A stretch of DNA of 59,474 nt, taken from assembly GCA_016867715.1 (NCBI GenBank), contig VGIW01000008.1, forward strand, positions 1 through 59,474, in the 5' to 3' direction. Of this stretch, positions 12,583 to 19,272 are shown in pieces. The translations under genes were made by a program, and so were the position numbers. Position 1 is the first letter of the stretch. Every line of letters starts with the position of its first letter. Under the pieces are notes generated by a model. It ran no database searches. It was given only the letters and a program-made list of their open reading frames with translations, and had not been told where the DNA came from. The DNA comes from Candidatus Eisenbacteria bacterium (GTDB lineage Bacteria > Orphanbacterota > Orphanbacteria > Orphanbacterales > Orphanbacteraceae).

Positions 12583-14397
12583 TTATCGCACGACTTCTTC
12601 TTCGTGAAAGACATCCGCTTGAAACACGAAGAGTCGCGCTTCCTTCTTCCAACAGCCGCCCGGAAGACCCGCTTTCGCGCAGAGATGATCGAGCATCTCC
12701 TCGCGGCTCCATCCTTGTTCGGGCGCCACCTGCGGGAGAAAGATGGCGGACCTTCCGTCCTTTTCGATCACGACGCCGTCCCGGCCGACCACGATGTCTC
12801 CCGGCTTTGCGACTCTCCGCCTCGGCGTGAGAACCGAGATCTCGATTGCGATCTCGCCCCACTCCTCGAGCGTCAGGGGAGCGAAGCGGCGATCGCTGAA
12901 GGCCGACTTGAGAGCCGTCTCCGACACGACACGATAGAGAGGCCGATCCTCTCCCATGTGTCCGATGCACCCCCTCAGCTCTCCGTTCTTCTTCAGCGTG
13001 ACGAAGGCGCCCCTCGCGACGAGGAGCTCCGGATCGTCGGCGCGCGGAAGAGGCGCGGTGCGCGTCCGAAGGTACTGATCGATTGTGCACCGCGCGTGGC
13101 GAAGAAGAGCACGCTTCTGATCCGCGCGGAGCGGCGAGCCGTCCCCCTTCGCGCTCGGCCGGTCGAGGCCGGAGAAGTCGGGGGAGGTCACGCCGGTCCC
13201 AAACACGACCGCGCCGTACCCGACGACTCGCCCCGGATCTCCGATTGCGGCATCTCCGGAGTTCGCGTAGCTCACGGCGACCCCGTACGGCGCGCCTAGT
13301 CTTCTTGCCGCGCGCATGACCACGAGTATCGGCGCTTCGCCGCACGCGGCCGTGGAGAGCCCCGGGATGCCCCGGTTCATCTCGCGGCGGATCGTCGCCC
13401 GCACCGAGTCCGGATCGCCCGCGGCGATCGCCCGAAGAACCCTCCCGTCGGTCGTCGCCGCGTCGTCTTGCGCCGGATAGTGGGAGAGATCCGTGCTCGC
13501 GACGATCAGCGCTCCCCGATCCGCGGCCGCGTCGGCGAGCGCGTCGCCGAGAGCATCGCAGAGATCCGGATCGGCGCTCCCGACGACGACAGGCACGATC
13601 TTCGCCCTCGGGAAGAGCACCTGGATGAACGGAACCTGAACCTCGACCGAGTGCTCCCTCTCGTGCGCGTCCTTTCGCGAGACGAAGCGCCCGTCCGACC
13701 TCAGCAGCTTCTTCGCGAACTCCGCGTCGACGGGGACTTCTCCGAGCGGCGTGCGGAAGGAGCCTTCCGCCCAAACAGCGGCGCCCCGAAAGGCCGGGAC
13801 CGTATGGTTCGTTCCAATAATGATCACGGTCGAAGGATTGAGGTCCGCGGCTTGTTTGTAGGCGTCTGCCGCGATCTGCGCGGAATAGATGTAGCCGGCG
13901 TGCGGCGCGATGAGAGCCATCGGACCGGGGACCGGCCGGTCGACCGCGTCCTCGAGGTAGCAGTCGATCGCCCGGCGAAGCTCGGATGGATCCGCAGGAT
14001 AGAAACTCCCCGCAACCGCCTCGGGACGGGTTTCTCCGAGCGCCTCGCCCGGACCGGCGATGATGAGGGCAGTCAATATGAGAAAGACGAGCCCACCAAG
14101 CGGGACGGGTGAGCCGCTGTTGCCAGCCCGAGATCCCCGCCCGCAGTAGAAAACGCGGAGGGGAGGAAGGGAGATCCGTGTAGCCTGGGCTCCGCGCGCG
14201 TTTTCGTCGCGAGGGCGGGAAGCGCGCGGCGAGAGGCCGACCTGGACGAGCCGCTTCCGGAAGCGTAGCCCCGGCGCTACACTGAGGAAGCGGCGACGGA
14301 AGGGAGGCCTCGCAGCCCGAGATCCCCGCCCGCAGTAGAAAACGCGCGCGGAGCCCAGGCTACCAGAGGCCCGCGATCGCGGTGCCGCAAGCCTCAC
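12583..14397 (-). CDS. AmmeMemoRadiSam system: fused Memo (AmrB) and AMMECR1 (AmrA) protein, start uncertain
   Basis: The conserved part begins near residue 123 of the longest frame (ETRPEAVAGSFYPADP). The Memo domain comes first (IAPHAGYIYSAQIAADAY, GTNHTVP, SATDLSHY-like STDLSHYP, HSVEVQVPF), then from about residue 425 the AMMECR1 domain (ARGAFVTLKKNGELRGCIG, SAFSDRRFAPLT). A hydrophobic stretch at about 99-119 looks like a signal peptide, so the protein is probably exported. The start is a problem. The only normal start before the signal-like segment is a GTG at 14397, inside the amrS gene, and residues 18-90 are encoded by a repeat element. A TTG at about 14076 would cut the signal short. 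The start may have been displaced by the repeat. Partner gene amrS is immediately upstream. Confidence 0.85.
   Translation of the reverse strand: MRLAAPRSRASGSLGSARVFYCGRGSRAARPPFRRRFLSVAPGLRFRKRLVQVGLSPRASRPRDENARGAQATRISLPPLRVFYCGRGSRAGNSGSPVPLGGLVFLILTALIIAGPGEALGETRPEAVAGSFYPADPSELRRAIDCYLEDAVDRPVPGPMALIAPHAGYIYSAQIAADAYKQAADLNPSTVIIIGTNHTVPAFRGAAVWAEGSFRTPLGEVPVDAEFAKKLLRSDGRFVSRKDAHEREHSVEVQVPFIQVLFPRAKIVPVVVGSADPDLCDALGDALADAAADRGALIVASTDLSHYPAQDDAATTDGRVLRAIAAGDPDSVRATIRREMNRGIPGLSTAACGEAPILVVMRAARRLGAPYGVAVSYANSGDAAIGDPGRVVGYGAVVFGTGVTSPDFSGLDRPSAKGDGSPLRADQKRALLRHARCTIDQYLRTRTAPLPRADDPELLVARGAFVTLKKNGELRGCIGHMGEDRPLYRVVSETALKSAFSDRRFAPLTLEEWGEIAIEISVLTPRRRVAKPGDIVVGRDGVVIEKDGRSAIFLPQVAPEQGWSREEMLDHLCAKAGLPGGCWKKEARLFVFQADVFHEEEVVR
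14124..14363. repeat. compound repeat element between amrS and the Memo-AMMECR1 gene
   Basis: A 34-base sequence starting CAGCCCGAGATCCCC occurs twice in the same direction, at 14124-14157 and 14313-14346, with no mismatch. A 25-base sequence starting GTAGCCTGGGCTCC at 14180-14204 recurs as its exact reverse complement at 14339-14363. The centre holds further small palindromes (around CTTCCGGAAG and TAGCCCCGGCGCTA). The right edge includes the amrS stop codon. Read through in the Memo frame, the two direct copies encode the same peptide (ARVFYCGRGSRA) at residues 17-28 and 80-91. It looks like an interspersed palindromic element, not coding sequence. No transposase is present. Confidence 0.85.
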
Positions 14398-15625
14398 ACG
14401 CCCCTCCCTTCAGGCGCGCCGCGCGGACGGAGAAGCCCCTCCGTTCCACGACGATCTCCCCGCACCCAGGGCAGAAGGTATGGTTCCCCGGATGCCCGGG
14501 AACGTTGCCGACGTATGGATAGCGAAGACCCGCGGCGAGAGCGATCTCCCGCGCGCGTTCCAGCGTCGAGATTGGGGTCGGCGGAAGGTTCATCAATTGA
14601 TAATCCGGATGAAAACGAGTGAAGTGCACAGGGACGTCCGGCCCCGCCTCGCCGACTACCCATTCACAAAGACCCTTCAGGTCTTCTTCCGAATCATTGA
14701 GAGTGGGAACGACGAGGTTGACGATCTCCAGATGGACTCCTTTCGCCGCGATCGTCCGGATCGTGCGGAGAACGGGCGCGAGGTCCGCCCCGCATACGTT
14801 CCGATAGAAGTCCTCGCTATATCCCTTGAGATCGATCTTGATCGCGTCGAGTATCGTGCAGAACTCGGCGAGCGGCTCGGAATTCATGAAACCGCAACTG
14901 ACGAGGACATGACGGATTCCGCGAGGTTTCCCCTCGTTCACGATATCCCGTATGTACTCGAAGAAGACGGTCGGCTCGTTGTAGGTGAACGCGATCACGG
15001 GCGCCCCGTTGCGCTCCGCGCCCCGCACGATCGCAGCCGGAGTGATCTCGGGCGCGTTCAGATCCTCCGGGCTCGCCTGCGAAAGCTCCCAGTTCTGGCA
15101 GAACCTGCATCGAAGCGGACAGCCCGCCGTTCCGATCGAGTAGGCGAGAGACCCGGGGAGGAAATGATAGAAGGGCTTCTTCTCGATCGGATCGGTGTGG
15201 ACTGCCGCCGGACGGCCGTAGGAGAGCGTCCTGAGCGTACCGCCGACGTTCTCGCGCACGCGACACCGGCCGCGTTCGCCGCCCTGGATCGCACACTCGT
15301 GCGCGCAGAGAAAGCACTTCACAAGCCGGGGGTCGTGCTCGAAGGCGGGGTCGAGCGCATCGGCGTCCGCGTGGCAGCGCGCGCAGTTCCCGGCTGCTCC
15401 CGCGACGGAGGACCAATAAGAGGCCTCCGGGGCACCTTGCGCGAGGGGACTCGCTCCGCGGGCCGCCGCCTCGACGGACCGGCCGAAAAGCGCCTCCAGC
15501 CAGGGTGGGGCCGCCAAGAGGAGCGCCCCCCCGACCGCACCGGCGCGCCCGGTGCACGCGAGGAATCGGCGTCTCGTCAGTCCGCGTTCGGCCATCTCTT
15601 CCGCTCGCACGCTCGCCGCGTGCAT
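14360..15625 (-). CDS. amrS: AmmeMemoRadiSam system radical SAM protein (AmrS)
   Basis: 421 residues. It has a twin-arginine signal (LTRRRFLACTG followed by a hydrophobic stretch), a short Cys-containing segment with CARCH near residue 82, and then CFLCAHECAIQGGERGRC, typical of this family. The radical SAM CxxxCxxC motif is GCPLRCRFCQN, with FTYNEPTVF downstream, and two Cys pairs at the C-terminus (CPGCGE, CEACGT) look like a zinc ribbon. The family partners Memo and AMMECR1 proteins; its biochemical role is not established. The gene start could be 15625 or an internal ATG at 15595; neither has a strong ribosome site. The stop codon lies inside the repeat element. Confidence 0.9.
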   Translation of the reverse strand: MHAASVRAEEMAERGLTRRRFLACTGRAGAVGGALLLAAPPWLEALFGRSVEAAARGASPLAQGAPEASYWSSVAGAAGNCARCHADADALDPAFEHDPRLVKCFLCAHECAIQGGERGRCRVRENVGGTLRTLSYGRPAAVHTDPIEKKPFYHFLPGSLAYSIGTAGCPLRCRFCQNWELSQASPEDLNAPEITPAAIVRGAERNGAPVIAFTYNEPTVFFEYIRDIVNEGKPRGIRHVLVSCGFMNSEPLAEFCTILDAIKIDLKGYSEDFYRNVCGADLAPVLRTIRTIAAKGVHLEIVNLVVPTLNDSEEDLKGLCEWVVGEAGPDVPVHFTRFHPDYQLMNLPPTPISTLERAREIALAAGLRYPYVGNVPGHPGNHTFCPGCGEIVVERRGFSVRAARLKGGACEACGTAIAGLW

Positions 15626-15735: not shown

Positions 15736-15770
15736 GAACCGAGAGCGAGGACGGGGAGGTGGACGAGCCG

Positions 15771-16175
15771 ATGCGTTTCGAAGACGACCGCTACTGCTAC
15801 CTTTGCGGACCGGCGAACCCGATCGGTCTTCGCGTCGAGCCGAACAAAGCGGACGGTCGATGCGAGATCCGGTGGATGCCGGAAAGGGAGTACCAAGGCT
15901 TCCGGAATATTCTTCATGGTGGAATCATTTCGGCCCTTCTCGACGAGGCGATGGCGCACGCGGTTCTCACGGTCGCCCCCGGCGCGGCGACCGCGGAGCT
16001 TTCGGTGACCTTTCGAAAACCCGCGCGGACCGATCGCGAGGTTCATGTCCGGGCGCGCGTCGAGGATCGGAGAGGACGCCTCGTGCGCGCGTCGGCGGTC
16101 CTCGTTCAGGAAGGGGAGGAACGAGCGTCGGCCGAGGCGAGGTTCGTCGTGCTCGCGAAGCCCGCCGCGGAATGA
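15771..16175 (+). CDS. PaaI/YigI-like hotdog-fold thioesterase
   Basis: 134 residues from the ATG at 15771, preferred over a GTG 12 bases earlier because GGGGAGG (15753-15759) would overlap that GTG but is correctly placed for the ATG. It has the hotdog thioesterase pattern: GFRNILHGGIISALLDEAMAHA (HGG plus Asp/Glu on the long helix), then a strand-rich half (AELSVTFRKPARTDREV). An N-terminal YCYLCGPANPIGL segment is typical of this subgroup. Such proteins hydrolyse acyl-CoA esters; the substrate is unknown. Apparently monocistronic. Confidence 0.88.
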   Translation: MRFEDDRYCYLCGPANPIGLRVEPNKADGRCEIRWMPEREYQGFRNILHGGIISALLDEAMAHAVLTVAPGAATAELSVTFRKPARTDREVHVRARVEDRRGRLVRASAVLVQEGEERASAEARFVVLAKPAAE

Positions 16176-16413: not shown

Positions 16414-16827
16414 ATGGAAACCAGGGTTCGCCGGATCGACTACTTCCACGCCACGGTCAAGGACCGACCGGGCGAGGCGTTCGAGATTCTGAGTCGCCTG
16501 CGCGCATCGGGAGTCAACCTCCTCGCGTTCAGCGCCGTTCCGTGCGGCCTCGGCAACACGCAGCTCGTCCTCTTCCCAGAAGACGTACAAAGCCTCGCGC
16601 GGGCGGCGGCCGACTCGGACATGGTTCTCATCGGACCGCACCGCGCGTTCCTCGTTCAGGGCGACGACAGGTTGGGAGCGATCTCGGAGATCCACCGGAA
16701 GCTCTTCGAGGCCAGCGTCAACGTCTACGCATCGAACGGGGTGACCGACGGCAAGGGCGGCTACGGCTACATCTTCTACGTGAAGCCGGAGGAGTTCGAG
16801 CGAGCCGCCCGCGCGCTCGGCGTCTAG
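16414..16827 (+). CDS. small tandem ACT-domain protein
   Basis: 137 residues from the ATG at 16414, with GGGAGGA upstream; the longer open frame before it lacks a ribosome site. Two ACT-like halves are visible. The first is RIDYFHATVKDRPGEAFEIL...GVNLLAFSAVP, with the alternating strand-helix pattern and DRPGEAF at the ligand-binding turn. The second is from about residue 70 (FLVQGDDRLGAISEIHRKL...NVYASNGV). Stand-alone ACT proteins sense amino acids. Position directly before the methionine/threonine-branch fusion gene suggests, without proof, a role in sensing aspartate-family amino acids. Confidence 0.75.
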   Translation: METRVRRIDYFHATVKDRPGEAFEILSRLRASGVNLLAFSAVPCGLGNTQLVLFPEDVQSLARAAADSDMVLIGPHRAFLVQGDDRLGAISEIHRKLFEASVNVYASNGVTDGKGGYGYIFYVKPEEFERAARALGV

Positions 16828-17016
16828 CCGCTCTCGGCGCCTGATCCCTTCGTGGATAAAGGATCGGGCACTGAGCCTCCCCCCGAACACGTATCGGGCA
16901 AGCCGGAGACTCTCGCTCCATTCCTTTGGAGACGGGACGGACGCCCGCTGCCTGCCGCGTGAATCAGGCGACCCTCGTCGGCGACCATCTCGCGCGACCG
17001 GCCGCCGCGGTGAAGA
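16828..17016 (+). other. non-coding, hairpin-rich leader before the MetX-Hom fusion gene
   Basis: 189 bases without a gene. Several local stems can be drawn: CCTGATCC with GGATCGGG, CCCGA with TCGGG, and CTCC/GGAG around a pyrimidine-rich loop. The first could terminate the ACT gene, but it lacks a U-run. I could not match the stretch to SAM-I, SAM-II or SAH riboswitch consensus features by eye, so no riboswitch is claimed. Confidence 0.35.
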
Positions 17017-19272
17017 ATGGACGAACACCGAGAACTCTGGTGGAAATCGCCGACGGTCGAACTCGCGAAAGTCGAGCACCTCCGTCTTCCCGACGGTTTC
17101 ACGACCGCTCGCGGCGCGTGCATCCCCTCGATCCAGGTGAGCTTCGAATCGTGGGGCGTTCTGAACGAGCGCAAGAACAACGCGGTCCTCATCGCGCATC
17201 CCCTGACGGCCGATTGTCACGCGACCGGATCGTTCGCGGGCGAGCCTCCCGGATGGTGGGAAGGGGTGATCGGTCCCGGAAACTCGATCGACACGAACCG
17301 GTACTTCGTCGTCTGCCCGAACCTCCTCGGCGGATGCTACGGCACGACCGGTCCGCGCTTCCCGGCGCCGGACGGCGGCCCTTACCTCGATCGTTTCCCG
17401 CTTCTGTCTCCGAGCGACATGATGCGGGTCCAAAGTCTCTTCGTGAAGCAGCTCGGGATCGAGCGGCTCCGCATGGTCGTTGGACCGAGCATGGGCGGAA
17501 TGATCGCGTGGGAATGGGCGATCGAGGCGGGAGAGGATCTGGACCTCGCGGTGATCGTCGCCGCGCCGCTCCGCACGACCGCGTACCAGATCGGATTGAA
17601 CTGGCTGCAGAGACGCGGGATCGAGCTCGATCTTCGAGAAGACCCGGCGATGGCGGATTGGGGGCGGATGGTGGCGCGCGGCGTCGGAATGCTGAGCTAT
17701 CGCTCTCCGGTCGGACTCGAGGAGAAGTTCGGCCGCGTGTGGTTCCGCGAGCCCGGCTCCGTGCTCGGGGAGCGCGGGATGTTCAACATCGAGTCGTGGC
17801 TCCGTCATCACGGAAAGCGGATCGTCCGCCGCTTCGATCCGTATACGTATCTTCTCTTCAGCCGCGCGATGGACCTCCACGATATCGGCGAGGGGCGGGG
17901 CGGGCTCATCGCGGCGCTCGACCGCGTGCGATGCCGCGTGCTCGTCGTCGGTGTGAGCAGCGACAACCTCTACCCGCCGGCCGAGGTCCATCAGGGGGCG
18001 GACGTTCTCCGTCATCTCGGGAAGCCGGTCGAGTACGCGGAGATCCGCTCGCCGCACGGGCACGACGCCGTGTTCATCGAAACACGGCCGATCGGAGCGT
18101 GCATCCGCGGGCTCCTCGAACGGGAACCGAGGATCGTGCCGACGCCGGCGGAGCGGGAAATCCGCGTCGTGCGAATCGGGATTCTCGGGGCGGGGCGCGT
18201 GGCTTCCTTGTTCGCGCGACTCCTCGCGGATCGGCACGAGGTAACCCGTCGCGAGTACGGGCTCGAGTTCGTCGTCGCCGCCGTCGCGGACACCGACCCG
18301 GAGAAGAGACCCGGGCCCGAGTTCGAGGGGGCTGATTTCGGACGCGACCCGGAGGCGCTCGTCCGAAGAAAGGACATCGACGCGCTCGTCGAGGCGACGA
18401 GCGGAACGGACGCCCATAGGATCATCGAACAGGCGATCGAGCGGCGGCTTCCGGTCGTCACACCGAACAAGTCCCTTGTTCACGAGCACGGCGCGCGACT
18501 CGAATCGCTCGCCCTCGAACGCGGCGTGCGGCTCGCCTATCAGAACGCGATCTCCGCCGGTTGGCCGCTCCTCTACGCGATCGAGCGCCCGCTCGGCGGC
18601 ATCGTTGTTTCGTCGATCGAGGCGATTCTTTCCTCCGCGGCCGGCGCCGCCCTCGAGCGGATCGAATCGGGAGCGACGTTCGACGAGGCGACCCGCTTTC
18701 TCCGCGAGGAAGGCTTCTCGGAGTTCGACCCGGAGCTCGACACGTCCGGCTGGGACTCCGCGCAGAAGCTCGCCGTTCTCCTCTCGCGCGCCGAGGAAGC
18801 GCGCATCACCGCTTCCGATCTGTTCGTGAAGGGAATCGAGACGATCGACCCGGTGCTCGCGCGGGCGGCAATCCCGCTCGGTCTTCGCGTGCGGCTCGTC
18901 GCGATCTATCGCTCTCTTGCGGAAGGACTCGAGGCCGGCGTTCTCCCGGCGGCAGTCCCCGCGGAAGGGCACCTCGGTTCGGTTCGAGCCGAAGATAACG
19001 TGGTGATCCTGCGGAGCGGCGAGGGGGGCGAAATGGTTTACATCGGAAAAGGACGCGGGAGTCTTCCCGTCGCAACGGCCGTCTTCAACGACCTCGTCGG
19101 CCTCTTTCACCCGAGCCGGAGCTGGACCGGGCAATTCCCCCGCCCGCCGAGAAAGCCGGCCCCGCCGCGCTTCGAACGGCATCTCGCCATGCGGGACGGA
19201 ACAGCGTTCTTTTCGGATGCTCCCGCGCCGGGTTCCGTCCCCGTTCTCGATTCGTTCTTGGCGAGCGGATGA
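17017..19272 (+). CDS. bifunctional homoserine O-acetyltransferase (MetX-like)-homoserine dehydrogenase fusion
   Basis: 751 residues. Residues about 20-370 are an alpha/beta-hydrolase of the MetX type, with nucleophile Ser158 in VVGPSMGGMIAW, acid Asp316 in VSSDNLYPP, His349 in SPHGHDAVF, and LLGGCYGTTGPR near 103-114. After a short linker, residues about 384-730 are a homoserine dehydrogenase: Rossmann RIGILGAGRVASL (386-398), VVTPNKSLV and a catalytic-domain core around EGFSEFDPELDTSGWDSAQKLAVL. There is no C-terminal ACT domain. The two activities are consecutive steps: aspartate semialdehyde to homoserine, then acetylation into methionine synthesis. The fusion would channel homoserine to methionine. 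Succinyl transfer instead of acetyl is possible. Confidence 0.9.
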   Translation: MDEHRELWWKSPTVELAKVEHLRLPDGFTTARGACIPSIQVSFESWGVLNERKNNAVLIAHPLTADCHATGSFAGEPPGWWEGVIGPGNSIDTNRYFVVCPNLLGGCYGTTGPRFPAPDGGPYLDRFPLLSPSDMMRVQSLFVKQLGIERLRMVVGPSMGGMIAWEWAIEAGEDLDLAVIVAAPLRTTAYQIGLNWLQRRGIELDLREDPAMADWGRMVARGVGMLSYRSPVGLEEKFGRVWFREPGSVLGERGMFNIESWLRHHGKRIVRRFDPYTYLLFSRAMDLHDIGEGRGGLIAALDRVRCRVLVVGVSSDNLYPPAEVHQGADVLRHLGKPVEYAEIRSPHGHDAVFIETRPIGACIRGLLEREPRIVPTPAEREIRVVRIGILGAGRVASLFARLLADRHEVTRREYGLEFVVAAVADTDPEKRPGPEFEGADFGRDPEALVRRKDIDALVEATSGTDAHRIIEQAIERRLPVVTPNKSLVHEHGARLESLALERGVRLAYQNAISAGWPLLYAIERPLGGIVVSSIEAILSSAAGAALERIESGATFDEATRFLREEGFSEFDPELDTSGWDSAQKLAVLLSRAEEARITASDLFVKGIETIDPVLARAAIPLGLRVRLVAIYRSLAEGLEAGVLPAAVPAEGHLGSVRAEDNVVILRSGEGGEMVYIGKGRGSLPVATAVFNDLVGLFHPSRSWTGQFPRPPRKPAPPRFERHLAMRDGTAFFSDAPAPGSVPVLDSFLASG

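Follow-up and report, generated by a model that had tools for sequence, protein, structure and literature searches.

Homoserine dehydrogenase (HSD) is known both as a monofunctional enzyme and as the C-terminal part of a natural fusion, the aspartate kinase-homoserine dehydrogenase (ThrA/MetL). Its substrate loop usually reads NGTxN, a motif that is customary rather than strictly defining; the loop of the Pyrococcus enzyme departs from it, and the backbone N of Ala171 and Ser172 contacts homoserine there (PMC5893615). Here we analyzed a stretch of 59,474 nucleotides from a Candidatus Eisenbacteria bacterium (contig VGIW01000008.1 of assembly GCA_016867715.1, hereafter the window), in which an HSD again forms the C-terminal part of a longer chain, this time behind a MetX-type homoserine O-acyltransferase. 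Our literature search found no description of such a MetX::HSD fusion, although the architecture may well be catalogued in sequence databases already. We propose that the chain is probably a bifunctional HSD/homoserine acyltransferase of the methionine branch, predicted as such from its sequence and relatives, and that it was probably acquired laterally.

Results

The fusion gene is a single open frame of 751 codons without interruption (Table 1). The first-pass annotation had let it begin at 16828, a position that falls in the intergenic gap after the preceding ACT-like gene; homologues begin near 17017. Its description of MetX and HSD as one 751-residue chain with the acyltransferase first was confirmed by profile matches and by the chain of a sister species in the same genus, which has the same length and is identical at 697 of 751 residues (93%). 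A frameshift or missed stop between the domains, which could have produced an apparent fusion, was looked for and rejected, because there is one frame, the sister chain is equally long, chains of its own fusion group (class 1, 14 chains) align with it, and dN/dS is low. Between the window and the sister species, a single species pair from which all our dN/dS values come, the ratio was 0.13 for MetX and 0.21 for HSD (0.13 in the NAD(P)-binding and 0.22 in the catalytic domain), and 0.48 for the C-terminal 51-residue tail. Both halves are under purifying selection, which together with the identical length of the sister chain excludes a sequencing or annotation artefact; since the fusion is also conserved in several phyla, the two consecutive methionine-branch enzymes are truly fused, as had been claimed. 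An AlphaFold2 model of middling confidence (mean pLDDT 69, pTM 0.51, shallow alignment) recovered both folds, matching solved HSD and MetX structures; its placement of MetX and the HSD part (residues 385-700) relative to each other is tentative.

Table 1 Features of the fusion gene and its upstream neighbours in the window.
Feature	Position	Strand	Remarks
PaaI-type hotdog thioesterase	15759..16175	+	neighbour only; conserved partner of ACT gene in G004
Stand-alone 137-aa ACT-like protein	16414..16827	+	Pfam ACT 22.9 bits, below cut-off 27
MetX::HSD fusion gene	17017..19272	+	751 aa
MetX-type homoserine O-acyltransferase domain, residues 1-370	17017..18126	+	PRK00175; 2pl5
MetX nucleophile Ser158 (GPSMGG)	17488..17490	+	invariant in 14 class 1 fusions
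MetX triad Asp316, His349	17962-17964, 18061-18063	+	invariant in 14 class 1 fusions
Short linker, residues 371-384	18127..18168	+	alignment of chains, structure model
HSD NAD(P)-binding domain, residues 385-508, with Lys485 (18469-18471)	18169..18540	+	Pfam NAD_binding_3
HSD catalytic domain, residues 509-700, with Glu569, Asp575, Asp580, Lys584	18541..19116	+	Pfam Homoserine_dh
Altered HSD substrate loop, S539-S-A-A-G543	18631..18645	+	NGTxN in HSDs
C-terminal tail, 51 residues, not an ACT domain	19117..19269	+	SWTG motif kept in class 1

The MetX half matched NCBIfam PRK00175 with 340.1 bits (cut-off 331) over about residues 15-370, and the Leptospira MetX structure 2pl5 with an E value of 3e-70. 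Its S158, D316 and H349 correspond to Ser157, Asp320 and His350 of M. tuberculosis MetX, and R221, Y228, D350 and T64 to the mycobacterial Arg227, Tyr234, Asp351 and Thr61 (PMC6937278). Of these tunnel residues, all 14 class 1 chains share the first three, whereas T64, which the window has, is missing from some class 1 relatives. The score against the acetyltransferase equivalog TIGR01392 (320.4 bits) lies under the cut-off of 500, and we therefore do not assert the acyl-donor specificity. The pocket Ala of the HALT motif is replaced by Pro62 in the window, so that acceptor and donor of the MetX half are assigned only tentatively.

The HSD half matched Pfam NAD_binding_3 (residues 391-508, 50.1 bits, above the cut-off) and Homoserine_dh (residues 517-694, 104.2 bits, cut-off 22.9). 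By alignment and spacing, K485, E569, D575 and K584 match Lys102, Glu185, Asp191 and Lys200 of Sulfolobus HSD (PMC5893615). A loss of the dehydrogenase Lys/Asp residues was checked by alignment, and K485, D575, D580 and K584 are all kept, being invariant in the 14 class 1 chains (E569 nearly so). The first-pass statement that the catalytic residues of both halves are apparently complete thus stands for the Ser/Asp/His of MetX and the Lys/Asp set of HSD, but not for the HSD substrate loop: NGTxN reads SSTCN in most class 1 fusions and SSAAG in the window, and the GGIP motif reads AAGWP in most class 1 relatives and SAGWP in the window. The regulatory ACT tail of HSD is indeed absent, no Pfam ACT match being found after residue 694. 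The second HSD of the genome, with 345 residues, is also too short for such a tail, so the tail-less state of the fusion is not special.

That second enzyme is a canonical stand-alone HSD on contig C30, where it adjoins the one strong PF01053 gene of the genome, and its dN/dS is 0.08, compared with 0.21 for the HSD half of the fusion. This neighbourhood, the weaker selection and the SSAAG loop would fit a reading in which the dehydrogenase part has lost its HSD function in the window's genus and mainly serves MetX as an attached structural or ligand-sensing module, with the stand-alone enzyme supplying homoserine. We regard this as rather unlikely: all the Lys/Asp/Glu residues are kept, dN/dS in the catalytic domain is still 0.22, and the loop Thr is not strictly needed in HSDs. 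Because the Pyrococcus loop contacts homoserine through backbone N, the change of loop need not abolish HSD activity, although it is a genuine deviation that the first-pass annotation had missed. The HSD half is possibly redundant in this genus. No second MetX and no MetA were found in the genome, which leaves the fusion as the only MetX/MetA detected there, and its MetX half is very likely needed for methionine.

The first-pass annotation had also noted a separate ACT-domain gene directly upstream, and had thought substrate channelling plausible, with feedback control outsourced to the ACT protein. The gene is present, although its Pfam ACT match is weak; it lies 189 bp upstream of the fusion on the same strand, and likewise lies upstream in the sister species. 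However, ACT orthologues (56-58% identity) occur in two genomes without the fusion, G004 and G005, and the G004 orthologue is a neighbour of the PaaI-type thioesterase that also lies ahead of the ACT gene in the window. No ACT gene was found at the fusion loci examined outside the genus, those of a Gemmatimonadota group (class 3, below) having been labelled with the same query set. We therefore rejected the ACT gene as a dedicated partner of the fusion; linkage does not support feedback control by its product, and we judge neither the ACT-like gene nor the thioesterase to be part of the system. Further upstream, at 12583-15625 on the minus strand, the window holds an AmmeMemoRadiSam cassette in which B (Memo) and A (AMMECR1) form one 604-aa chain adjoining the radical SAM enzyme; in the frame of this chain the initial ~100 codons, where RVFYCGRGSRA recurs, probably do not code for protein.

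Channelling was further considered in five relatives (G041, G042, G043, G044 and G047), each of which has ThrC and no PF00742 match besides the fusion. The genomes of the relatives are mostly drafts or derived from metagenomes; unless these five are incomplete, threonine synthesis there must draw on homoserine released by the fusion, and the HSD half of class 1 works. Sharing of homoserine with threonine argues against obligate channelling in these five, and together with the distribution of the ACT gene it leaves channelling under outsourced ACT control with hardly any credence from us.

Class 1 chains with 48-62% identity to that of the window were found in Eisenbacteria, Gemmatimonadales, Polarisedimenticola and other Acidobacteriota, and Planctomycetota. 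Glycine C-acetyltransferase-like (KBL) and acetate--CoA ligase-like (ACS) genes accompany the fusion at five class 1 loci, including one broken copy, and at four of the five an acyl carrier protein (ACP) gene was also called. The order is ACP - KBL - fusion - ACS in L006, L007 and L140, and KBL - fusion - ACS in L011, with remnants of it in L012. Five class 1 genomes also hold a separate MetX, with two candidates scored per genome. These gene orders, the separate MetX and the clade-wide changes in the HSD loop, the GGIP motif and the MetX pocket raise the thought that the clade acts with these enzymes in another pathway, the substrates of both halves being altered. Such a role seems improbable, because the fusion is the sole HSD found in the five genomes with ThrC and so should make homoserine there, because the corresponding ACS, ACP and KBL genes of the window's genome lie together on another contig (C7, L057:4516-7802), and because ACS may do no more than recycle acetate set free in a MetY reaction. 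Of the same low probability, in our estimate, is a more specific version in which the class 1 fusion would be an enzyme of its own kind, its homoserine site remodelled, that works with a glycine C-acetyltransferase, an acetate ligase and an acyl carrier protein dedicated to it, acetyl groups being handled on the carrier and not as acetyl-CoA. Acetate recycling offers no explanation for the acyl carrier protein.

Two loci deserve separate mention. In L012 (6001-8678) the class 1 MetX ends after residue ~363 and is followed by an acetate ligase fragment, indicating a broken locus or an assembly error, and no HSD was found in that genome. A 1097-aa frame in L010 was considered as a trifunctional chain and rejected, as its extra 352 residues look like upstream read-through and homologues start at MetX.

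Beyond class 1, two further, deeply diverged MetX::HSD clades were found, class 2 in Acidobacteriota and class 3 in Gemmatimonadota. In class 2 the fusion precedes a PF01053 gene, with a 4-bp overlap in several loci. In class 3 the fusion lies downstream of a MetY-type gene that overlaps it by 4 bp in several loci; a SAM_alpha riboswitch precedes this pair, and in L129 it precedes the fusion alone. By context, classes 2 and 3 are methionine genes, and these neighbours and the riboswitch in related clades support a methionine role for the window's fusion. At the window and the other class 1 loci no riboswitch was found, and the class 1 loci read had no MetY-type neighbour. SAM_alpha, by its name an alpha-proteobacterial family, was detected here in Gemmatimonadota (L128, L129, L132, L134 and L136). 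MetY-type enzymes release acetate from O-acetylhomoserine. In L128, L130, L134 and others, the MetY-type gene and the fusion are preceded by a gene whose N-terminus, judged by eye, resembles acetate kinase; this gene in class 3, or the ligase in class 1, could recycle such acetate. A possible unfused counterpart was seen in Aquimarina (L017:5977-9366), where a MetX gene is followed after a 12 bp gap by an 804-aa protein with a C-terminal HSD, likely an aspartate kinase-HSD.

Each of the three classes is a fully supported clade in both domain trees. The three stay apart in the best trees, although a single clade is not rejected by AU tests (p 0.44 for HSD, 0.21 for MetX); three separate fusion events are thus not established, and one to three origins are possible. 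Within the window's small phylum (seven genomes compared) the class 1 fusion occurs in its own genus only, and the other genera of the family gave no MetX match and an HSD match in three of four. Because the fusion is confined to one genus of the phylum and widely scattered elsewhere, the genus probably gained it laterally.

Discussion

We favour the bifunctional reading, in which the C-terminal HSD would reduce aspartate semialdehyde to homoserine and the N-terminal MetX would acylate it to O-acylhomoserine, most likely from an acetyl donor; a separate Cys/Met-metabolism PLP enzyme, here presumably the product of the PF01053 gene on C30, would then convert O-acylhomoserine on the way to methionine. 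The fusion may keep the homoserine-making and homoserine-committing steps equal in amount and close together. The laterally gained chain would thereby supply the only detectable homoserine acyltransferase, while the older stand-alone HSD remains. The sequences establish the fusion, its conserved key residues, the purifying selection, the distribution and the single MetX of the genome; the two enzymatic activities, the nature of the acyl donor, acquisition by lateral transfer and any gain from proximity are inferred. Several observations count against it: the window's own clade has neither the riboswitch nor a MetY-type neighbour in the loci read, the loss of NGTxN is strongest in the window's genus, where selection on the HSD half is weaker than on the stand-alone HSD, and the MetX half carries Pro62 in its pocket and does not reach the TIGR01392 cut-off.

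Compared with MetX of Leptospira (2pl5) and mycobacteria, the window protein has the same alpha/beta-hydrolase fold and Ser-Asp-His triad and shares the tunnel Arg, Tyr and Asp, in the window also the Thr; it differs in carrying an HSD at its C-terminus, in the exchange of the pocket Ala for Pro62, and in reading GPSMGG instead of GGSMGG. With monofunctional HSDs (3mtj, 6dzs and Thermus 2ejw) it shares the NAD-binding and catalytic domains and the residues Lys485, Glu569, Asp575, Asp580 and Lys584, whereas it has MetX in front and lacks both the ACT tail and NGTxN. The class 2 fusions of Acidobacteriota (L094-L101) have the same domain order in one chain at about 30% identity, but possess a canonical NGT/NAT loop and are coupled to a downstream PF01053 gene. 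The deeply diverged class 3 fusions of Gemmatimonadota (L128 and relatives) likewise agree in domain order, and unlike the window they have a canonical NGTxN and stand behind a SAM_alpha riboswitch and a MetY-type gene. In each of three deeply diverged clades, one of them under a SAM riboswitch, HSD shares a chain with the enzyme that acts directly after it, where the threonine and methionine routes part, and the fusion offers a natural test of whether joining enzymes directs a branch-point intermediate. In ThrA/MetL, the known natural fusion with a C-terminal HSD, the partner is an enzyme earlier in the pathway, whereas in the window HSD is paired with the enzyme that follows it on the methionine branch.
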